Source of the DNA: Strigamia acuminata
Taxonomy: Eukaryota; Arthropoda; Chilopoda; Geophilomorpha; Linotaeniidae
Length of the DNA stretch: 64,000 nucleotides
Assembly (NCBI GenBank): GCA_949358305.1
Contig: OX442316.1
Span: 13,392,001-13,456,000 of the forward strand
Direction of reading: 5' to 3'
The notes under the pieces are model-generated. The model was not told where the DNA came from. It saw only the letters and a program-made list of their open reading frames with translations, and ran no database searches. Positions 368 through 64,000 of the stretch are shown here, piece after piece (position 1 is the first letter of the stretch; each line of letters opens with the position of its first letter). Position numbers and translations under genes: made by a program.

Positions 368-1501
368 TTATTTTGGAATTGGTCTGTTTAGGACTGATTC
401 CTGAAAAGCATTGTGGTTGACAATTGTTTTGTTGTAGAACCTCGCGAATGTTTGTTCGGAGGTCCAACCGGCAACACCTAATATTTGTTGTACCGGAATA
501 ACACTGGCGGCTGCGCTGGTGGCCGCAGCTCGCGTCGAATGAGCACCAAACTCTTGACCGACGCCGATCTTTTTTAAAAAATCCTTAATCCATCGTCGCA
601 CAGTATCTTTGGTAGGTGCGGCATGGGGTGGTTGTAATTTTAAGAACAAACCATCGTCCTTGCGTAACGGATTTGTTTTGGCCAAAAAATCCATCAGGGC
701 CTTGAAAGGGCAGATGGCCCGTTCTTGCAAATAAGGGGCCACTCGAAATACAGTATGGTGTCCAACACGAGAATGCTTGTGTAAAGTTTTCGGGTTGAAA
801 ATGACCGCGTCAGTTGAGACTGTCATCTCCGAAATTTTAAAACTTTGCAGCGAGCTGACCCTGGCAGCAGTTGTTAAAGCCAGCAGCATGAGCAGTTTTT
901 CTTGGAGTTGTCTCCAATCGAGATCATCATGCGGCCAGAGTTTTCGCAGGGCGTTCAGAGCTAGGCCCACGTCCCAAGTGGCCACATAACGTGGTAAGTT
1001 CGGCCTTAAATTATTAACTCCTTTTAGAATTCGGGCGATACGATCATCAGCTCTAATTGACGGGTCAATGAAGCCTGCGGCGGTGATGGCCGCTAAACTT
1101 CCCGAAATGGAGGAGTGTGACAAGCCTTCATTGAATCTTGAGGCGATGAAATTTGCGGTATTGACGAGCGTTAAACGATAGTTTGAGTCAAGACTGGGAG
1201 GGAGTGGATTGGAATAAGGTGACCCTTCACCAGAAAATTCCGTCCACCTCTTAATTCCCGCCGTGTACGTTCTGACAGTTGTCGATCTCCACCCGGCCGA
1301 GTACAAGTTGGCAGCGTCCGGCGAAAAGCCTCCTGCGATGAGGTCACTCCACTGACTTTGCAGCCAAGGAGCTGCAGGGCCTGGAGAGGAAACTGGGCCT
1401 CTGGTTGATGAACCAACATCAGATGTTCTGGGGCCGGAAAGGACACTGGTACTGCGACCAGGCAGTCCAACAGTGGTACAAACCACGCTTGTGAGGTCCA
1501 T
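368..1501 (-). CDS. DIRS element tyrosine recombinase
   Basis: Encodes 377 residues from an ATG. An N-terminal SAM-like core-binding domain (about 50-150) precedes a catalytic domain. The tyrosine-recombinase residues are visible: Arg214 in AARVSSL, the H-x-x-R pair at 321-324 (HSTR), Trp346 in VAGW and the nucleophile Tyr356 in ARFYNK. It should insert the circular DNA copy of the element by site-specific-like recombination. It overlaps the upstream polyprotein ORF by about 330 bases, an arrangement common in DIRS1-like elements. No frameshift or stop is seen, so the enzyme looks functional by sequence. The product is unlikely to be anything else. Confidence 0.9.
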   Translation of the reverse strand: MDLTSVVCTTVGLPGRSTSVLSGPRTSDVGSSTRGPVSSPGPAAPWLQSQWSDLIAGGFSPDAANLYSAGWRSTTVRTYTAGIKRWTEFSGEGSPYSNPLPPSLDSNYRLTLVNTANFIASRFNEGLSHSSISGSLAAITAAGFIDPSIRADDRIARILKGVNNLRPNLPRYVATWDVGLALNALRKLWPHDDLDWRQLQEKLLMLLALTTAARVSSLQSFKISEMTVSTDAVIFNPKTLHKHSRVGHHTVFRVAPYLQERAICPFKALMDFLAKTNPLRKDDGLFLKLQPPHAAPTKDTVRRWIKDFLKKIGVGQEFGAHSTRAAATSAAASVIPVQQILGVAGWTSEQTFARFYNKTIVNHNAFQESVLNRPIPK

Positions 1502-4461
1502 TTTGGTACTACTAGAAGTACCGTGGCTTGATCCTGGCGGATTTTTTGTAAAATCCTAGAAATTAAACAAAAAGGAGGAAAGGCGTAAGCAAAAGTTTCT
1601 TTCCAAGAATGGGAGAACGCATCTATCCTGTAAGCGAAGGGGTCAGGGCCCCAAGAAAAATACTTTGGTAATTTATGATTTAGTCTTGTCGCAAACAGAT
1701 CAATCTCAGGTAGTCCGAATAGGGATTTTAATTTATTAAAAATTTTTGGAGATAAACTCCATTCCCCATCCGTAGTTAAAAAATTACGCGACAAATAGTC
1801 GGCCATAACGTTTTCCTTACCGGGGATATGAATTACTGAAAAGTCGATTTTTAATCTTTGGGAATCTTCCCACACTAGTCTCCCAAAATGGTGGAGTTGC
1901 TGGACCTTGCTGCCCTGGTTCCGGAACACGCTCACTACTGTGGAGCTGTCGGAATGAAACAAAACGTGTTTTTTGCCGTCAAAGGGGGCAAAAACCTTCC
2001 AGGCGAACCAGAGGGCCAAAAGTTCCTTGACATTAATGTGAAAATCATTTTCCTCAGCTGTCCACTGGCCATTAGCAGAGCGGGAGTTCCAACTGGCTCC
2101 CCAACCCAAATTGGAGGCATCGGTGAAAACCTCCGTATCCACATCGTGACGGGTTAGATTTTTGGGGGAGAAATTCTCTAATTTAGTCCATCTAGATAAT
2201 TCGACTTTGATGTCGGGGTAATTTTTAACTAAAGTATTATAGTTGTGGTTATGAAGGAACAACTGTCCTGTTTTGAAAGATTCCAGGGGCTTTATGTTCC
2301 AAAAACCGTCAGAAAGCGCTGGCTCGGCGGAAACTAAATTGCCAATAAAAATGGCCAAATCCTGAATGGAGAAATTCTCCAATTGGAGAAGGCGCGAAGC
2401 TAGCTTAATTATTTTTGTGATTTTCCTTTCTGGAAGTGACACTTCCATTTTTCTAGAGTCTAGTGTTAATCCTAAAAATTCTATTCTAGTTTTGGGAATA
2501 AATTCGGATTTTTCCCAGTTAATGCAGAGGCCTAATTTTTGAAAAAAGTTTATTACGTCGTTACAGGCGTTTTTAGCCTCGCAAAAAGAATCACACAGAA
2601 AAATACCGTCGTCCAAATATGGGATTCCGCAAATCCCCCAAGTCCTCAACTCGGAAAAAACAGGGCACATAACCTTAGTAAAGGTCCGTGGGGCACTAGC
2701 CAAGCCCATTGGCATTACCTGATACTCGTATAATTGGCCTTGCCACAAAAATCGTACATATTTTTTGAATTCGTTTTTAATTGGTAACAAGTAAAAGGCG
2801 TTAGTGAGGTCGATTTTAAACATAAATTGACCCTTTTTCATAAGGTTTATCGCATCTTTAAGCGAGGCCATTTTAAAATGGAGATAATCTAAGCTCTCGT
2901 TGAACTTTTTTAGATTTAAAATAATCCGTACGGATCCGTCCGGCTTGGGGACGGCGAAAATTGGACTTAAGTATTCGCCTTCAACGTGGGCGACCTGTTT
3001 AATTATGCCTTGCTGGCAAAGCTTGTCCACAGCTTGGGAAATTGCAAAAGTTTCGCTCAAATTCATTCTATATTCCGTTCTTTTAACGTGAACGAGCTTG
3101 TCGAAATTTAGATCGAATTTTATGCCCGACAGGGCAGATAATACAAACGGATTGGATGTGATTTTACGCCAAACAGGCAAGTAATATTGTAAATTTCCTG
3201 GCTTAAAGGATAGATGCGATATGTGTGAATTGAAGAATAACTCTTTATTTCTTACATTTTCAGATTCAATTACAGGTGATTCTGCCGCTACTTCTTGTAG
3301 GGTTTTCCGCGCTGGCTCTTCCCCCGATCTGCAAAGAGAATCGGAATTAGTACACACGGTCACGGGATTAGAACAAACAATGTTCATACTATTCTGGCGC
3401 TTAAAATCGAAACTTCTTGAGTTGTCTGAGCGCTTGTTATCGTATTTATTATCGTACCTATTGTACGGGTGGTAGCGGCGGTAATTCTTGTCCCTGTCGG
3501 ACTTGCGGTTTTCGGCTTTATCAAAAGTGGCCTTGGAAGTGACCTTTTTTAATTCATCGAATTCCTTGATCTGCTTGGGCAAATCCGGGCCAAACAGGTC
3601 GGATGGGAAAATAACCTTCCCTTTCGCAAACGGCTTGTACCTAGGTGCGAGCGAGTCCGCGAAGTCCAAACGTCGGCGCAACGTTAGCGCCGTATTCATT
3701 GCGCCCAGCAGTGTCATGGCCTCGGCCAGGTGGGTGACCAGTGAATTGGGGTCCAAATTTCCCGCCACTACATCCTTCATTGCCGAAGCAAGCGGAATGT
3801 AAGTCTTCAGAACGAGTTTCTGATGTTTTAAAGACGTCGTGTCTCTCGACCTTATCCAAGGCTGCACATCTCCAAACATAGTGCCGTCCACTTTAGGCGG
3901 GTCCAAGTACTTTGCGTTTTCAGGGATTATCAGTTTATCAACTAATTGGTCCCTAAATTCCGTCGAGGTCTCAAAAAGCGATTTGCTTACCAAAGCCTCT
4001 AATTCGGCGGGCCAGGCGTCGCCAAACTTGGTCTCGGCGCCCAAAAGTTTCGAAACATCCGAAAAACCAACTTTGGTTGCCGAAGTCGGAGCCGTTGAAC
4101 CGTCAACTGGCTTGGTCCCGCTTGTGACGACAAGGGGAACTGCGATTGCGGGGTTCAACAACGAAGTTGTCCCGTCAGTGGCTTTTGGGGTAGGTACAGC
4201 ACCTGGCCCAGCCATCGCGGTGTTCTGCGGCGAAACGACGACCGTTTTCGCAGTTAGCAAATTTTGCATTATGTCTTTTAGCTCGTACACAGTGTCGGCT
4301 AGACATTCGATCCTATTTTGCATCCTTCTCGGCGAAGGTGGCTCTTCTACGATCTCTTCTTCGTGGTTAGGTTCGTGGACCTCCTCATTTTGGAGATTTT
4401 GGACCACGTGGTCGTTCAAAGTAGGGAATCCAGAATCGGTAATCATAACTTGGGAATTCAT
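1171..4461 (-). CDS. DIRS element polyprotein: Gag-like region, reverse transcriptase, RNase H, methyltransferase-like domain
   Basis: Encodes 1,096 residues starting at an ATG. Residues 1-350 are Gag-like: acidic N-terminus, Pro/Thr-rich linker, conserved middle, then a basic Arg/Tyr/Asn-rich tail, with no CCHC knuckle seen. Reverse transcriptase covers about 480-670, with the catalytic YLDD box at 615-618. RNase H covers about 775-895, with acidic residues visible in TDAS, the KELLAL helix, HSDSS and MADYLSR. Residues about 910-1000 (DLFATRLN, KLPKYFSW, YAFPPFCLI) match the methyltransferase-like segment typical of DIRS1-type elements. It copies the element RNA into DNA in the host cell. 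Gag and RT are fused in one frame here, and the last ~110 codons overlap the recombinase ORF in another frame. How the recombinase is translated is not evident. Confidence 0.9.
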   Translation of the reverse strand: MNSQVMITDSGFPTLNDHVVQNLQNEEVHEPNHEEEIVEEPPSPRRMQNRIECLADTVYELKDIMQNLLTAKTVVVSPQNTAMAGPGAVPTPKATDGTTSLLNPAIAVPLVVTSGTKPVDGSTAPTSATKVGFSDVSKLLGAETKFGDAWPAELEALVSKSLFETSTEFRDQLVDKLIIPENAKYLDPPKVDGTMFGDVQPWIRSRDTTSLKHQKLVLKTYIPLASAMKDVVAGNLDPNSLVTHLAEAMTLLGAMNTALTLRRRLDFADSLAPRYKPFAKGKVIFPSDLFGPDLPKQIKEFDELKKVTSKATFDKAENRKSDRDKNYRRYHPYNRYDNKYDNKRSDNSRSFDFKRQNSMNIVCSNPVTVCTNSDSLCRSGEEPARKTLQEVAAESPVIESENVRNKELFFNSHISHLSFKPGNLQYYLPVWRKITSNPFVLSALSGIKFDLNFDKLVHVKRTEYRMNLSETFAISQAVDKLCQQGIIKQVAHVEGEYLSPIFAVPKPDGSVRIILNLKKFNESLDYLHFKMASLKDAINLMKKGQFMFKIDLTNAFYLLPIKNEFKKYVRFLWQGQLYEYQVMPMGLASAPRTFTKVMCPVFSELRTWGICGIPYLDDGIFLCDSFCEAKNACNDVINFFQKLGLCINWEKSEFIPKTRIEFLGLTLDSRKMEVSLPERKITKIIKLASRLLQLENFSIQDLAIFIGNLVSAEPALSDGFWNIKPLESFKTGQLFLHNHNYNTLVKNYPDIKVELSRWTKLENFSPKNLTRHDVDTEVFTDASNLGWGASWNSRSANGQWTAEENDFHINVKELLALWFAWKVFAPFDGKKHVLFHSDSSTVVSVFRNQGSKVQQLHHFGRLVWEDSQRLKIDFSVIHIPGKENVMADYLSRNFLTTDGEWSLSPKIFNKLKSLFGLPEIDLFATRLNHKLPKYFSWGPDPFAYRIDAFSHSWKETFAYAFPPFCLISRILQKIRQDQATVLLVVPKWTSQAWFVPLLDCLVAVPVSFPAPEHLMLVHQPEAQFPLQALQLLGCKVSGVTSSQEAFRRTLPTCTRPGGDRQLSERTRRELRGGRNFLVKGHLIPIHSLPVLTQTIV

Positions 4462-4643
4462 AATAGAATGTTATAAAACTAATAAAGAAACAATTATTAG
4501 AAAGGTGTTCGAAAATATGAGATCCTTTAATTAAAAAGGGGAAAAAACGATATAAAAGCAAATTTTTCTTGTAGAGCAATTCGAACCTGACCGCGCAACC
4601 CGTTAGTAGAACCGGAAGTGACGTAACCCGACTAGTAGCGCCA

Positions 4644-57100: not shown

Positions 57101-57666
57101 AATAGTATGATCGCAATCACACACTCCACAGTAAGGAGTAATAAGGCTGGAGTTTTCTCTATTCTTAAGGTCAAACAGAGTATAGTTAAACTGCGTTCCC
57201 CAAAAATCACCAACTCCCTGCATTTTTAATCAAACTGTAACAACTGAACTTAATTTGAATAATACAACATTTTAAATACACTTGCTAAATACGCACTGTT
57301 CCCTGATTGGTGCACGTGTGATGGCAACGTTCATTTACAACACTCCTCAGAACTTTTATTTCTTCATTAAATTTTCAAATCCAAACTGCTAACATTTGTT
57401 TCTTATTCATTCTAAGCTCTATAAAAAATTAACAATTTTGTTTTTGTCACTAGCAATTTGTCGTATTTGACATTTGTGAGATTTGTCAACAGTCATAATA
57501 TAATTGAAATGTAAATTCCATAGAAAAAACATGCCCGTCATACATTTGACAGAACTAAAAATTATTAATAAAAAAAAACCCACTAAGTGAAATTCGAAAT
57601 AAATAATTCATCATTTAACTCGTATAAACATATAATCAAATGAAACGCATCGAATGTCTATCACAT

Positions 57667-58826
57667 TGTAATGAGCTCAAATTTCACTATAAAATAATAG
57701 TGAAATTTCTTTCTCATTGGTGCCGCATCGGGACTTATCAAAATTCTACTAAAACTCAACTCTAAAATCTTAACTGACTAATCAAAGAAGAAATAATCAC
57801 TAATTAGTTCTTAAATAAAGGAAAAAGATTTATTCTTGGCTTGAATAAACTAATAGTAAAATACAATTAAATAATAGGAATTAAAGGTAAAAGTAATAAT
57901 AATTGAAGGTGAAATGGCGAAAATAATACAAAATAGCGGCGATGGCTTGTCGCTCGCTCTCGAATTTCGTTCTTCACTCGACGCTCGCTCTCGAACCTCG
58001 TTCTTCACTCGACGCTCGCTCTCGGACCTCGATACTCGCTCTCGGACCTCAATGCCCGCTCCAAACCTCAAAACGGCGTCCAAACTTCACTCTTTACTCA
58101 CGATGTTCATTCCTGGTTAAACCGGACAAATTTCCGAATTCTTGGTGACTTGAACTCGGACACAATTCCGTTTCTTCTCTCTCAAAACTCGCAACAGATT
58201 CGGACACAATTCCGACTCTTCTTCCTTGATGACTCCGTGGTTGCGGCAAATTCCGCTTTATGTTGACTGGGACAAATTTCCCAATGAGGATTTCTCATCC
58301 AAACAATGGCTGCTTGGCAAGAATGATGATCTCTCCAAACAATGGCTGCTTGGCAAGATGAAAATCCCACTGATGAATATGCTCAATCAGCAAGATAAAT
58401 TTCCCACTACTGGATGTACACAGTAGCAAGAACTCCCACAATAACTTTATGTTATTGTAAGAAATGAGTCTCAATACTCAAGAACATCTCAAAACTGCTT
58501 TAGCAATTTGCAAGAAGGAGTCTAAATACTCAGGCAATCTTTCACCAAATCCACTTGAAGAATTGTATTTTCCCAGGGTAGATTTTGTGACTTGTTGCTC
58601 TCAAGGTTGATTTCAGACTGAAGATTTTTTCTCATTCTCTGCAGGAAGCATTTCCTGTTACAGGAAGCTCATGGGCTGGTTGCCCTGGCAACCACCCTCA
58701 TGTCTTCAAGTTATGCCAGACTTCCTGTTCAGGCATAAAAAATAAACTCAAATAAAAATATGAAATATATAAAATATTTCCAGACACATTTCTGTTCTTC
58801 ATCTAGTGACCACTAGGGTCACTACA
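57667..58826 (-). repeat. 3' LTR of the retroelement (1,160 bp)
   Basis: On the minus strand it starts TGTAGTGACC and ends CTCATTACA. It contains an 8-bp inverted repeat at its start (58805-58825), a 12-bp perfect inverted repeat (aaatttcactat, 57679-57708) near its end, a TATATA-like stretch near 58765-58785, a duplicated ~36-bp unit (caatggctgcttggcaag at ~58305 and ~58341) and a 31-bp tandem repeat at 57950-58060. Short open frames here are not believed to be genes. Confidence 0.9.
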
Positions 58827-58840
58827 CTTCCCCCCTTTTT
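58827..58840 (-). promoter_or_regulatory. Polypurine tract next to 3' LTR
   Basis: AAAAAGGGGGGAAG on the minus strand lies directly against the LTR start, the standard position of the plus-strand primer in LTR elements. Confidence 0.85.
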
Positions 58841-58862
58841 AGGAAGTTAGTTCCTAACTTCT

Positions 58863-61800
58863 CTAAATCTCATCATCGATCCTCGAGGCGAAGTCCTTGA
58901 TGGGGATTTCAGATTCGGAGACCGAAAACTTCAGTTTGTCTTGGGATTTCGTTGAATCATTCCTTGTCGTAACCGATTGATTCTGTCCAGCAATTGCAGA
59001 TGGTGTCCCGCTCCCAGGACTGAAATCCTGCCATCCGCTTCTTCCGGCAGCTTCCTTCAAGTGACCGGTCCAGTTGGCTCGAACAGGCAATTGATTTTCA
59101 GTTGTGTGTTCAAATGATCTGAAACAGGCATCTTGCAAAACTTTGCCTGAGTCAGCTCGATCATTCTGAGTTTTAACATTCATTTCTGGTGTTGTCGCCA
59201 CTAATTGTTGTTGCACAGCTGATGCGTTTGTTGCTTCAAAATTCAATGGCTTTTTGCTTTCCATTAATGTGATTTTATTCCCTGCAATCTTCTCAATTTC
59301 AAGCCACTGCTTCTGGATTTCCGGTTGAGTGTTTGGCAAATCTACATGTTGAATTCTGAACTCCTCCAATAAAAAACTTGCAACTGGCTGTTTTCCTTCA
59401 GATGTACTCTTAATTGTAACTGTAGTGGGCACTGTAGCTCTGCTGTCTGAATTGCTACAATCAGATTTTTTAACAGTATCTGAAAAATTAATCTTGGACT
59501 TATTTCCAATTGCAACTGCACTGACAATATGTTTCTGTAGGTCAGTTGATTCAGTGTAGCTTGCGTAACTAAGCTTCATTGCAGTTTTAACTTCACTGGA
59601 CTCCATGAAGTGTTGATCAACTTGGATTATTTGATTTGGTTGCTTTTCCAATAAATTAATTTTTGAAATGTTTTCAGTTGTGATTGAGCTGGCAGCAAAT
59701 TTTGGTAACTCAATTGATTGAGTGTTGTGTTGCTTCAAGTCAATTCTCTGCAAAGTTTTTTCCAAAATTCTGTTTTCTTTTTCTGTTGGTCGTGGACCTT
59801 GTTTTTCAATTTGACCAATTGATGTTAATACTTGGCAATCTTGATTTTCTGGTCGTCCTTTCAATCCTGTATTTGTATGCTGTTTACTGCAAAGCATCTT
59901 GTAATCATCTGTTTGTAGAGGTTTTTCATTTTCATGTTCACTCCTTGTATCTCCAGATGTTTGGATTGTTTCTACCAGTTTAACTTCAGACCTTTCCTCT
60001 AATTGAATCAATTGCTGTTTAGCTTGGATTCTTTTCTTTGGCAGCTTCTCCACTTTTTCTTTGGTGTCTTGAGTTTCATTTGCCAAATCCAGTCGCTGAT
60101 AACAATTTTTGATCAAAATTTTTACTTCCTGTAGGTCTTCAGAAGTTATATTTTCCAGTATGTTCTTCAGAGCCACGATGAAATATTTGGAGGGCCACTC
60201 TGAATTCTGCCGACATAATTTCGGTGAAAACGTGGAATCTTGTAACATTACATTATCTGTCAGTCGTTTGATCACTTTTCGAAGTTGTTTTCGAACAATT
60301 TTCGTTTCTCGAACCAGACATTTATTTTCTGATTTTCTAGGATTCCTGGATGAATTTTGATTCTTTTTCTCTTTTTCCATCACTCTTCCCCCCTTTTTTG
60401 GAAATGGTTGAACTTGTTCATCAGTTTCAAAATCTACACTTTTTGGAAAAAGCAATGGATTTTCTTCTAAGTTTTCAAAAATCAAATTTTCTGTGTCCGA
60501 TTCGATAATTTTTTCTGCAATCTGTGCATCATCTTGGTTCTTCTTATCATCAGAATTTTGTGTATCCTGTAGAGGTTGCGCATTTTTGTGAGCTTGCATT
60601 TTGTCCGATTTGGACGCACTTTGTGTAATTTTATCACTTTCGACACCCTGTGTGCCTTCTGCATGTCGTGTGTCTTCTGCACTTTGCACACTTTTTTCTT
60701 CTTGTTGTCTACCATCTATGGCTGTTTTTTGGTCATTGAAATTTTCGAAATTGATTGATCTTTGATGGTGACGATCATTTTCGTTTGGCCAGCCTGCCAT
60801 ACATGTGTCAACTTGTGTTTGGCCAAGTTCTCTGTTTGCTGTGGACATTCTGATGTCATCTGGTTGTTGGAGGTTCTGCTTGTCCATGACATCAAATAAC
60901 ATTTTCTTCTGAGCAGGTGTTGAGGTTTGGTTATTATCTCTACGATATTTTGTATCGTCATTTCCTCGCTTTACTGCATTTCCTGTTGAATCCGTAATTG
61001 ACTGTTCAACTTTCGACTGATGCATGACACTTGCTGTATTCCTAACTGGTGGACACCGTGAATGTGCCATGTACCGCAGCTCTTGTGGATCTGGTTTTGA
61101 CTTCTTTGCGTCTTCCTGAGCTGGTGGAGATGCTTTAGGAAAATTTTCGTTTTCAACATGCAATGATGATTCCATTGTCTTCCCTTCTACGACGAGTGCT
61201 TGATTAAAGCTGTCAATCTTTTCCATTTTTTCAGAAGGTGTCTTTTTTGCAAAATTAATCGAAAATGTTTTCATTTCTAGAATTAAGCTTTTCCTCGATT
61301 CAGACATTGTTTCTGTTTCTTCACCAGATGTAGATAACCTTTTTAATGCCTTCTTGACTGCATCCATTGCTACTGGCAATGACAATTTTTTGGCAACTTC
61401 AGAAAACCTTAAGTCCACTGGTGAGTTGTGTCTTTTCCTTGTGGTTACCTCAGCACTGGTCCCATATCTTAAAATTTTCTGGTCATCTCTGGATTGACGT
61501 TTCGTCTCTGCAGGACTGTCTCTAGTTTCGGTCTGTAAACGGCGACGTACTTCTTGTAATTTAAGTCGGGTTGGCGAGCGTACTGCTGATAATGCCGTGC
61601 TGTCAACTGATTTTCTGGTCGAAGTCTTCTTATCCGCCTTTATTAAACAACCTCTTTCTTCGGTTATTTTGATTGGTTCTTCGAACAACAATTTCGTGAG
61701 ATCGCTTTTGCTTCGTGGAATGGATTTTACATTTTCAGATAATGAACGTACTGGAGATGTGGTGCGCGATACGTAATGTCTTCGTGATTGTACTTTGTTG

Positions 61801-63155
61801 GCTTCGAATTTATTTTGTGTTTCGCGTATTTCAAGCTCCATTCTTATTTGCGCGAGTTTATTGTCCAATTTGGTTTCACGTTCCTTGCGCTCTTCCACAA
61901 GTAATTGTTCCTGTAGTTTTTGCTCTTCTAATCTGTAACATTCCCTCCGCTGATCTCGATCATTCGCCGCAGCTATCCATGCAGCATATTCCTCGTGGGA
62001 CATTGGTTCATTTATGTGGCAATAACATGCTTCATGCGTAATGTCTAGCATCCGGTCTTGTACTTCTCGCAGCTTGAGACGTGTTGGCGAAATTATTCTT
62101 TTCAACTGTGTCAAGTCGGTCCTGCAACTGGGTGAGAATCTTGCGCGATTTAGCAATAAACACTTTTGACATGTGGCACGTGGTACGCATTGTTTTGGTG
62201 ATTGCACTGTTTGCATTGTTAAATCCACTGATTCCTGGGAACTCGAGGGAGATTTTGCTAGACTTTCATCCGTTTGTTTCAAGACGAATTCTTGTTCTTT
62301 TATTGCGTTTGCTGGTGAACCAAAGTTATACGACTCATTTCGATAAGAGTAACCATACTCGTTTTGCTGACACGCTTTGTCTTTGAAATGTGATTCACTT
62401 TTCTGGCGGGCTTCGTCCTGATAACGCGACTCATTTCGCTGATTTGAGTCCTCGTTTGGACGTGAGTTGTTCTTAAAACGTGATTCACTTCTGTGGCAAA
62501 TTTCGTCATGATAATGCGACTCATTTCGCGGATCTGAATTTTCGCGTTGACGTGATTCGCAACAATAACGCGACTCGTTTCGCGAATGTGAGTCCTCTTG
62601 TTGACACTCTTTGTCACGGTAGTGCGACTCATTTCGCGACTGGAAGTCCTCGTATTGGCGGAAATCGTCTTTGAGCGAACGTTCTCGTGACGTAGAAGGA
62701 CCATGTTCTTCTTTTCTTTGATTAACTTCGCTTCGACTATCAAGTCCCGAATCATTTCGGTTATCATATCGAATGTCGTATTTTGGTATATCCTGATCTC
62801 GTTGATCGCATCTTCTTTGATAGTTCTGTGGTGAAGAAGAATGACGCATTTCATTTTTATCTCTTGATTGCCGTGTCTTATGGATTGTTAATGTACCACT
62901 TCTACTCTGGCTGGCTTGTAGTTGGTGGTCAGCCATCTTGATTGTAAAATCTTGGAAAAAATTTTCTTGATCCCGTTGAACAATCTTGGAATGTTTTCTG
63001 TCATCTGTGTTCTTAATGGCAATCGGAGACGACATATCTTCTGTGTGGTGTAACAATCCCAAATGTGGTGGCAAACTATATCTTTTCAATCGCAATGATG
63101 ATTGTTGAACTTCCATGGTTGGTCTTTGTACTTGTTTCTTATGATGATCAGACAT
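58863..63155 (-). CDS. 1,430-residue protein of unknown family encoded by the LTR element
   Basis: Uninterrupted from an ATG 260 bases inside the 5' LTR to a stop 23 bases before the polypurine tract. The protein is hydrophilic and rich in Gln, Ser, Lys and Glu. Residues ~170-275 carry about five diverged repeats around RNESHY/RNESRY. A Cys cluster (C323, C329, C332, C344, then CYCH at 377-380) may bind metal. A charged coiled coil covers ~400-450. A motif recurs three times: SPTRLKLREVQDRM (356), SPTRLKLQEVRRRL (527) and SPVDLRFSEVAKKL (578). Near the C-terminus is a Gly/Ser/Pro segment (GRSGWQDFSPGSG). No protease DTG/DSG, YxDD, RNase H or integrase zinc finger is seen. It may be a highly diverged Gag or a captured gene; I assign no function. 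Confidence 0.8.
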   Translation of the reverse strand: MSDHHKKQVQRPTMEVQQSSLRLKRYSLPPHLGLLHHTEDMSSPIAIKNTDDRKHSKIVQRDQENFFQDFTIKMADHQLQASQSRSGTLTIHKTRQSRDKNEMRHSSSPQNYQRRCDQRDQDIPKYDIRYDNRNDSGLDSRSEVNQRKEEHGPSTSRERSLKDDFRQYEDFQSRNESHYRDKECQQEDSHSRNESRYCCESRQRENSDPRNESHYHDEICHRSESRFKNNSRPNEDSNQRNESRYQDEARQKSESHFKDKACQQNEYGYSYRNESYNFGSPANAIKEQEFVLKQTDESLAKSPSSSQESVDLTMQTVQSPKQCVPRATCQKCLLLNRARFSPSCRTDLTQLKRIISPTRLKLREVQDRMLDITHEACYCHINEPMSHEEYAAWIAAANDRDQRRECYRLEEQKLQEQLLVEERKERETKLDNKLAQIRMELEIRETQNKFEANKVQSRRHYVSRTTSPVRSLSENVKSIPRSKSDLTKLLFEEPIKITEERGCLIKADKKTSTRKSVDSTALSAVRSPTRLKLQEVRRRLQTETRDSPAETKRQSRDDQKILRYGTSAEVTTRKRHNSPVDLRFSEVAKKLSLPVAMDAVKKALKRLSTSGEETETMSESRKSLILEMKTFSINFAKKTPSEKMEKIDSFNQALVVEGKTMESSLHVENENFPKASPPAQEDAKKSKPDPQELRYMAHSRCPPVRNTASVMHQSKVEQSITDSTGNAVKRGNDDTKYRRDNNQTSTPAQKKMLFDVMDKQNLQQPDDIRMSTANRELGQTQVDTCMAGWPNENDRHHQRSINFENFNDQKTAIDGRQQEEKSVQSAEDTRHAEGTQGVESDKITQSASKSDKMQAHKNAQPLQDTQNSDDKKNQDDAQIAEKIIESDTENLIFENLEENPLLFPKSVDFETDEQVQPFPKKGGRVMEKEKKNQNSSRNPRKSENKCLVRETKIVRKQLRKVIKRLTDNVMLQDSTFSPKLCRQNSEWPSKYFIVALKNILENITSEDLQEVKILIKNCYQRLDLANETQDTKEKVEKLPKKRIQAKQQLIQLEERSEVKLVETIQTSGDTRSEHENEKPLQTDDYKMLCSKQHTNTGLKGRPENQDCQVLTSIGQIEKQGPRPTEKENRILEKTLQRIDLKQHNTQSIELPKFAASSITTENISKINLLEKQPNQIIQVDQHFMESSEVKTAMKLSYASYTESTDLQKHIVSAVAIGNKSKINFSDTVKKSDCSNSDSRATVPTTVTIKSTSEGKQPVASFLLEEFRIQHVDLPNTQPEIQKQWLEIEKIAGNKITLMESKKPLNFEATNASAVQQQLVATTPEMNVKTQNDRADSGKVLQDACFRSFEHTTENQLPVRANWTGHLKEAAGRSGWQDFSPGSGTPSAIAGQNQSVTTRNDSTKSQDKLKFSVSESEIPIKDFASRIDDEI
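60385..60398 (-). promoter_or_regulatory. Internal copy of the polypurine tract
   Basis: The same 14 bases as the terminal tract (AAAAAGGGGGGAAG on the minus strand) occur inside the ORF, coding within KKGGRV. It could act as a central polypurine tract or be coincidence. Confidence 0.4.
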
Positions 63156-63398
63156 GATGTTAATTTTTAGTAGATAGGATAATGAAGAAAGAAATAGTTT
63201 AACTTAGAAAAATATCTTCTAAACTCTGTTAACCATTTTCCCCCTTTTTTGTTTGAGAACCAAAAAAAAAAAAATTCACACCTATTCTTACTACAAATCA
63301 AAAAATAGAAGTTCCTCAATCTAATTAACCTATCACAAAACAATTTTCCAAACAAATTAGGTCCCTCAACTAAATAAAAGTTGTTAAGGTTCAAATCT

Positions 63399-63416
63399 TT
63401 CAGGCCCAGGCCCCCA
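63399..63416 (-). promoter_or_regulatory. Candidate primer-binding site
   Basis: Two bases after the 5' LTR the minus strand reads TGGGGGCCTGGGCCTGAA. It begins with TGG as sequences complementary to tRNA CCA ends do. The matching tRNA is not identified. Confidence 0.45.
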
Positions 63417-63418
63417 AG

Positions 63419-64000
63419 TGTAATGAGCTCAAATTTCACTATAAAATAATAGTGAAATTTCTTTCTCATTGGTGCCGCATCGGGACTTATCAAAATTCTA
63501 CTAAAACTCAACTCTAAAATCTTAACTGACTAATCAAAGAAGAAATAATCACTAATTAGTTCTTAAATAAAGGAAAAAGATTTATTCTTGGCTTGAATAA
63601 ACTAATAGTAAAATACAATTAAATAATAGGAATTAAAGGTAAAAGTAATAATAATTGAAGGTGAAATGGCGAAAATAATACAAAATAGCGGCGATGGCTT
63701 GTCGCTCGCTCTCGAACCTCGTTCTTCACTCGACGCTCGCTCTCGGACCTCGATACTCGCTCTCGGACCTCAATGCCCGCTCCAAACCTCAAAACGGCGT
63801 CCAAACTTCACTCTTTACTCACGATGTTCATTCCTGGTTAAACCGGACAAATTTCCGAATTCTTGGTGACTTGAACTCGGACACAATTCCGTTTCTTCTC
63901 TCTCAAAACTCGCAACAGATTCGGACACAATTCCGACTCTTCTTCCTTGATGACTCCGTGGTTGCGGCAAATTCCGCTTTATGTTGACTGGGACAAATTT
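63419..64000 (-). repeat. 5' LTR of the retroelement, first 582 bp visible
   Basis: Matches 57667 onward base for base as far as I can read, but has one fewer copy of the 31-bp tandem unit. The rest of the LTR and the flanking target site lie outside the window. Confidence 0.9.

Follow-up and report, generated by a model that had tools for sequence, protein, structure and literature searches.

The window analysed here, 64,000 nucleotides of contig OX442316.1 from Strigamia acuminata (assembly GCA_949358305.1, positions 13,392,001 to 13,456,000 of the forward strand), contains near its end a long terminal repeat (LTR) retroelement on the minus strand, whose 5' LTR is cut through by the end of the window. 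As a preliminary description had stated, this element carries a single intact open reading frame (ORF) of 1,430 codons; the LTR pair, the target-site duplication (TSD) ATGT and the frame at 58863-63155 (-) were all verified. The element probably arose by internal rearrangement from a Ty3/Gypsy-type LTR retrotransposon and is non-autonomous, being presumably mobilised in trans by pol-bearing relatives. Its parts, from the 3' side to the 5' side, are as follows:

57663..57666, no strand: 3'-side copy of the 4-bp TSD, ATGT in element orientation, read from the flanks of locus L001
57667..58826, minus: 3' LTR, 1160 bp, TG..CA, TGTAGTGACC...GCTCATTACA
58827..58840, minus: polypurine tract (PPT) AAAAAGGGGGGAAG, adjoining the 3' LTR
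58863..63155, minus: fused ORF of 1,430 amino acids (aa), stop codon included in the coordinates
63156..63418, minus: leader, 263 nt
63236..63250, minus: third purine tract, AAAAAAGGGGGAAAA, in the leader
63388..63416, minus: primer binding site (PBS) region TGGGGGCCTGG...GATTTGAACC, tRNA-Pro-like
63419..64000, minus: visible part of the 5' LTR, which is 1129 bp in all and runs past the window

The visible 582 bp of the 5' LTR equal the 3' LTR except for one 31-bp tandem unit. At L001, the genome locus of the window element, the full LTR pair differs by three mismatches and the 31-bp indel, and the flanks read ATGT/ATGT. With its paired LTRs ending in TG..CA, its PBS, PPT and TSD, the element has the properties by which LTR retrotransposons are recognised, the match between PBS and tRNA being short (8-11 nt). 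It is a young copy, and an open run of 1,430 codons has a chance of about 1e-42 at the local base composition.

The preliminary description had called the encoded protein unlike any Gag or Pol, and in database searches this held. Pfam gave no family at E values up to 1, PHROGs and NCBIfam gave none, and the best match in the PDB reached an E value of only 0.21. Among about 5.8 billion proteins, in searches that score only candidates having short words in common with the query, there was no relative of the whole ORF at E 0.01 (5778 candidates) and none of aa 900-1430 at E 1 among the 7988 candidates sharing most words, while a control protein from the same window gave 137 relatives in the same type of search. 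Phage and viral contig searches produced no match, nor did a search of one LTR 23-mer against a collection of genome contigs, and all five Rfam matches lay below their gathering scores. A motif scan of the ORF revealed no reverse transcriptase (RT) catalytic motif, no integrase HHCC and no zinc-knuckle pattern; together with the Pfam result this bears out the claim that the element lacks pol functions, and there is accordingly no pol of its own by which it could be assigned to Ty3/Gypsy. A loose D-D-35-E integrase pattern matched the ORF 21 times and was not accepted as an integrase, and an envelope-like product was ruled out, as no 19-residue window has a mean hydropathy above 0.61. No description of such an ORF was found in the titles and abstracts of the literature, most subscription journals lying outside the coverage.

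The same claim failed against the relatives of the element in its own genome. Genome searches with the leader and the PPT led to pol-bearing elements of a type termed here H1 (L034/L035), which is about 14.9 kb long, with LTRs identical at 1005/1005 positions and the TSD CAGT/CAGT. H1 has a Gag frame of 1,262 aa with a zinc knuckle above the Pfam cut-off, in which Pfam names no capsid domain and the capsid is presumed, and an open pol frame of 1,769 aa, in which RT, RNase H and integrase (IN) exceed their Pfam cut-offs and the protease (PR) match falls below its own. Judged by domain order, with the protease below cut-off, H1 shows the Ty3/Gypsy arrangement of PR, RT and RNase H followed by IN. 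It also carries a third frame, ORF3, of 1,023 aa (L034:1074-4142 (-)), with no Pfam match. When the genome was searched for Pol, 44 places of 7046 candidates were scored, 25 of them H1-like at at least 94% and the remaining 19 in a group at 82-83%, termed H2.

The ORFs of the family were compared with the H1 proteins by composition-adjusted BLASTP, with shuffled and host-protein controls. The window ORF matched H1 Gag at Gag 528-707, 572-638 and 96-160, with E values from 2e-7 to 4e-8; two of its Gag matches reach 37-43% over 65-67 aa (E 4e-8 and 6e-8). The matches were stronger in other members of the family: for L013, pieces against H1 Gag at 86-215 (64%, E 4e-48) and 217-277 (67%, E 1e-19), and for the ORFs of subfamilies C and D, matches within Gag 57-834 with E values down to 7e-21. 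Shuffled controls reached 29.6 bits at best and the real matches up to 170, and three presumed host proteins of the window had no match at E up to 10. The related segments of the window ORF are these:

62319..62804, minus: ORF aa 118-279, related to H1 Gag aa 528-707, the RNES-repeat part of its N-terminal arm
61536..61730, minus: ORF aa 476-540, matching aa 96-160 of H1 Gag at 37% over 65 aa
60366..60584, minus: ORF aa 858-930, matching the C-terminal tail of Pol in H1 (L034 piece, aa 914-1006), E 1.5e-6
58875..58955, minus: ORF aa 1401-1427 (KFSVSESE), probably the end of H1 ORF3, E 0.049, weak alone

By these alignments, the ORF contains parts of the Gag N-terminal arm and of the Pol tail of Ty3/Gypsy-type relatives in the same genome, and its C-terminal end probably derives from the end of their ORF3. 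These Gag-arm and Pol-tail modules are joined in one frame with about 470 aa (aa 931-1400) for which no source was found among H1 Gag, Pol and ORF3. At E up to 1e-3, nothing in the family ORFs matched Gag past aa 834, where the presumed capsid and the knuckle lie, or PR, RT or IN. Gag beyond about aa 838, PR, RT, RNase H and IN are missing from the element.

The ORF product is predicted to be largely disordered: in a charge-hydropathy test, the whole ORF and six of its seven segments fell on the disordered side. AlphaFold2 models of two segments, made without an alignment, had mean pLDDT (predicted local distance difference test) values of 56.4 and 35.9, too poor for a fold search, and one of these single-sequence models predicted a further feature:

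61761..61958, minus: long charged helix, ORF aa 400-465, pLDDT about 85-97 over most of its length

A second ORF, of 184 aa, lies in another frame of the same strand (window 62300-62854 (-)) and overlaps the RNES repeat region; it is probably a by-product of the 18-nt repeat unit.

A genome search for the ORF, covering 237.5 Mb in 157 contigs, showed that the element belongs to a multi-copy family; 33 of 1129 candidates were scored, and the counts are therefore lower bounds. Eighteen of these 33 are window-type copies matching aa 1-1430, five are near-identical with a different ORF end, two carry insertions that split the match, two are 93-94% identical with one stop, and six are divergent. 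The frame is intact in 28, at 1,430-1,990 aa from the ATG. The other five (L010, L012, L013, L020 and L021) have one premature stop each, in five different places, which is TGA at an arginine of the relatives in all but L020, where it is TAA at a lysine. LTR pairs could be compared in 29 elements (L004 in part), excluding the tandem loci L028 and L033 as well as L010 and L013, in which no pair was obtained; 17 of the 29 are without any substitution. An exact 4-bp TSD flanks 25 of 28 elements at the coordinates as scored; upon re-reading of the flanks, L015 and L022 also fit a 4-bp TSD, and L014 reads CCGG/CCGT. The family has diversified into subfamilies whose frames are still open: C and D share the open frame although their LTRs match the window type at an identity of only 0.56-0.61, and large in-frame length differences between the ORFs are tolerated. 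The locus G000:C3:24911030-24923689 (L028, L033) holds two tandem copies with the middle LTR in common (LTR-ORF-LTR-ORF-LTR).

The preliminary description had also proposed that the ORF of this young copy is maintained, and the family supports this as regards the openness of the frame. Over the aligned ORF, representatives of subfamilies A, C and D differ by 546 (A-D), 449 (A-C) and 533 nt (C-D), differences that without constraint would be expected to bring 24-34 stops, and none was observed. These representatives were picked for being intact; the conclusion stands despite this choice, because the broken copies hold just one premature stop each. The dN/dS comparison that the same description had called for gave a divided answer. 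In well-aligned codons, the ratio is 0.62 for A-D, 0.60 for A-C and 0.49 for C-D. Neutral simulations, limited to codons whose surroundings align well (1252, 1236 and 1577 codons) and run with a kappa estimated from 31-43 fourfold differences, gave means of 0.63 (A-D), 0.70 (A-C) and 0.65 (C-D), with 103, 19 and 2 of 200 runs, respectively, at or below the observed ratio; with kappa set to 4, the counts were 35, 31 and 0 of 200. The C-D ratio thus lies below nearly all neutral runs, whereas those for A-C and A-D lie inside the simulated range, and an initial reading of their raw ratios of 0.60-0.65 as purifying selection was dropped, since the kappa-corrected neutral simulation gives the same values. 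The last 100-150 aligned codons have the lowest ratios of any window along the alignment, 0.39 for A-C and 0.34 for A-D. Among the internal repeats, only one of the three DNA-detected pairs had a significant ratio (p 0.047), and gap sizes between distant subfamilies, of which 4/17, 6/17 and 3/14 are not multiples of three, are ambiguous and were not used as evidence. The openness of the frame is thus clearly kept, and the identity of its residues only weakly.

Since the element has no pol, it needs a helper, as had been anticipated, and the pol-bearing relatives share with it the signals through which a helper might act. Common to H1 and the window type are the first 17 and last 14 nt of the LTR, the start of the PBS, the PPT and the 4-bp length of the TSD, and nt 23-89 of the leader are 84% identical between the two. 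The LTR end together with the PBS start (24 nt) occurs at 67 places of the genome at up to two mismatches, some of them in window-type copies and others next to Pol of the H1 or H2 type, and in seven H2 elements, all pol-bearing, the first ~526-568 nt of the paired LTRs are 80-83% identical to subfamily D. This genome contains a tRNA-Pro-like 3' end whose complement agrees with the PBS of C, D and H1 over 11 nt; the window-type PBS agrees with it over 8 nt, and over 11 nt with that of a variant present at two places. The assignment to tRNA-Pro is one that we presume, the genome places being candidate tRNA genes.

A further shared signal lies within the ORF itself:

60385..60398, minus: internal polypurine tract within the Pol-tail segment, identical to the terminal PPT at all 14 nt

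Both in the window element and in H1, which has its own variant, AAAAAGAGGGGAGG, the internal and terminal tracts agree at 14/14 nt; in subfamily D one base differs, and subfamily C has a shorter tract. Central PPTs are a feature of lentiviruses and of Ty1, and we read the internal tract as a putative central PPT. This reading is based on the presence of the tract in H1 and the other subfamilies, not on a shuffle test, in which the 14-mer was present in 24 of 3000 synonymous-codon shuffles of the ORF.

Direct contact between the two lineages is suggested by a single chimeric LTR. A 24-mer from the window-type U5, allowing up to three mismatches, was found at 57 genome places, 52 of them in known copies and five elsewhere; a 29-mer from the middle of the LTR was found at 51, of which 50 were in known copies and one beside one of the five extra U5 places. 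Of the five, one, at C3:25072733, belongs to an H1-family element with a Pol (C3:25063666-25066800) 99% identical to that of H1, and sits in the 5' LTR of this element. This LTR is 95% H1-type, and over its first 998 nt it does not differ from the 3' LTR of the same element. There follow a short junction with a repeated AGCTCATTTAGTAGAATTT motif, 87 nt identical to the window-type LTR end, then the PBS and a leader of H1 type (95.6%); the 87-nt piece is missing from the 3' LTR. The two regions of this element are:

L036, G000:C3:25072601-25074000: chimeric H1-family element
L037, C3:25058701-25059950: chimeric H1-family element

The H1 and window lineages have therefore exchanged sequence, and exactly where reverse transcription starts. 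The simplest reading of the chimera is template switching in one shared particle.

Together, these observations suggest the following route. Pol-bearing relatives would package, copy and integrate the RNA of the element in trans; they would recognise it through the shared PBS, the leader that follows the PBS, the terminal and internal PPTs and the LTR tips, and would leave the same 4-bp TSD; the chimeric LTR would fit template switching between both RNAs in one particle. With less assurance, we suggest that the frame is kept because the RNA benefits in cis from being translated into a disordered chimera with the Gag arm. This benefit might arise in either of two ways: the shared arm could bring the RNA to the Gag of the helper, or the long RNA could be kept translated and thereby shielded from decay.

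Several observations weigh against mobilisation in trans by these relatives, or against the role it gives to the protein. The U5 and mid-LTR matches lie almost all in known copies, and these genome searches brought up no element of the kind that the preliminary description had proposed to look for, with pol between LTRs of the window type along their whole length; the one H1-family element described above bears the last 87 nt of that LTR. Over the whole LTR, the window type and H1 are only 0.55 identical, and the chimeric LTR could instead have come from recombination at the DNA level. The window type is without most of the coiled-coil module that L013 retains. For A-D and A-C, dN/dS lies inside the neutral simulation and so gives no evidence of amino-acid constraint, and among the 18 window-type copies synonymous variants make up 6/25, the neutral share. 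Finally, L021 (G000:C10:8774501-8783000) has a premature stop in the ORF, yet its LTRs are identical over 1161 bp. This stop may have been present already when the copy moved, and the ORF is then perhaps not needed in cis, unless the stop post-dates the insertion.

The weak constraint on residues invites an explanation in which openness itself is what counts: selection would favour uninterrupted translation of the genomic RNA, through escape from nonsense-mediated decay or through ribosome-linked packaging, and the peptide would be nearly free to vary. The lineage would then keep a frame of 1,400-2,000 codons open while its amino acids drift almost freely, translation of the whole RNA being the maintained trait. 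We advance both the explanation and this description of the lineage tentatively, as possibilities that fall clearly short of probable. Openness is indeed strongly kept while the A-C and A-D ratios lie inside the neutral simulation, large in-frame length differences are tolerated, and most of the product is on the disordered side; the C-D ratio and the low ratios of the last aligned codons weigh against it. Alternatively, the product might be a parasite of Gag, entering helper particles by the shared N-terminal arm and carrying its own RNA in. The retained Gag parts all fall within Gag 57-834, with none from the later presumed capsid and knuckle part, and the chimeric LTR fits presence in one particle. 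However, both the loss of most of the coiled-coil module from the window subfamily and the weakness of amino-acid constraint speak against this route, which we likewise regard as doubtful.

Two further explanations are much less credible. Were the element an ordinary deletion derivative, open merely through youth, many near-identical LTR pairs would be expected, as found; but youth does not account for the absence of stops between representatives that differ by hundreds of nucleotides, for a frame common to C and D despite their divergent LTRs, or for five broken copies with one stop each before the usual frame end, and we consider this very unlikely. Capture of a host gene between the LTRs, after the manner of Bs1-like transduction, in which a cellular gene is the source of the ORF, had been offered as a possible origin and is at least as improbable. 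The stretch at aa 931-1400 without a source in H1 would leave room for it. Conversely, other parts of the ORF are retroelement-derived, as their Gag-arm and Pol-tail homology shows, and no relatives emerged among the word-sharing candidates scored in the protein searches, in which the control found many. In addition, A occupies 47% of the fourfold sites of the ORF but 15-22% of those in four exons of the window presumed to belong to the host, and CpG is lower in the ORF, a difference that speaks against recent capture. The opposite concern, that the ORF is a known Gag or Pol fragment or a chance remnant, was correct insofar as the ORF holds fragments of both proteins and incorrect in that the family is multi-copy and not a single chance remnant. 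A non-autonomous, internally rearranged Ty3/Gypsy-type derivative thus remains the probable identity of the window element.

Among known non-autonomous elements, large retrotransposon derivatives (LARDs) have non-coding interiors, and that of the window element is nearly filled by one giant, kept-open frame. Like them, it keeps LTRs, PBS and PPT around an interior of more than 2 kb with no recognisable gag or pol domain. The LARD class rule (more than 2 kb, no recognisable retroelement domain), as worded in PMC6022998, would take it in. The same paper defines terminal-repeat retrotransposons with GAG domain (TR-GAGs) as pol-less with a gag coding sequence. The window element is likewise pol-less and keeps gag-derived coding sequence; unlike a TR-GAG, its ORF has neither a recognisable Gag domain nor a knuckle, its Gag homology stops at aa 834, and parts of the N-terminal arm are fused to a Pol tail and unmatched sequence. 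The window lineage therefore fits neither LARDs, being coding, nor TR-GAGs, lacking the Gag domain. With H1 it has in common the PBS start, leader segment, LTR tips, internal and terminal PPTs, TSD length, Gag arm and Pol tail; it differs in that H1 has the rest of Gag with the zinc knuckle, the four enzymatic domains and the full ORF3. The tandem-repeat non-autonomous LTR elements of Culex quinquefasciatus are similar in forming families for which no master copy was found but, according to PMC3286476, are without coding potential. In Cer1, as set out in PMC10309623, an extra element-encoded protein, CERV, serves the element's own RNA; the likeness drawn here is one of role, and CERV is made from a spliced mRNA of an element with gag and pol.

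In the usual view, non-autonomous LTR elements have no coding role or retain a plain gag. Here a giant chimeric frame has stayed open across considerable divergence, in a family that shares one assembled genome with pol-bearing relatives. With such a family, one can test directly which features a retrotransposon's parasite cannot do without, and whether retrotransposition itself requires that the RNA be translated.

Other elements were noticed alongside. At G000:C6:12505631 to 12510954, an LTR end with PBS and an exact PPT with LTR start lie 5.3 kb apart on one strand; among the scored places there was no match to the ORF or to H1 Pol in this interval, which is perhaps another non-autonomous type. 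Similar, unassigned LTR-PBS ends occur at C3:15591046, 15600041 and 15608825, at C1:8693390 and at C1:61332045. Further related PPT-LTR starts (AAGGGGGGGAAGTGTGGTGACC), probably of another related family, are found at many genome places, for example C1:3482153. Within the window, a DIRS-type element occupies 368-4470 (-), with a tyrosine recombinase ORF (Phage_integrase) overlapping an RT/RNase H ORF.

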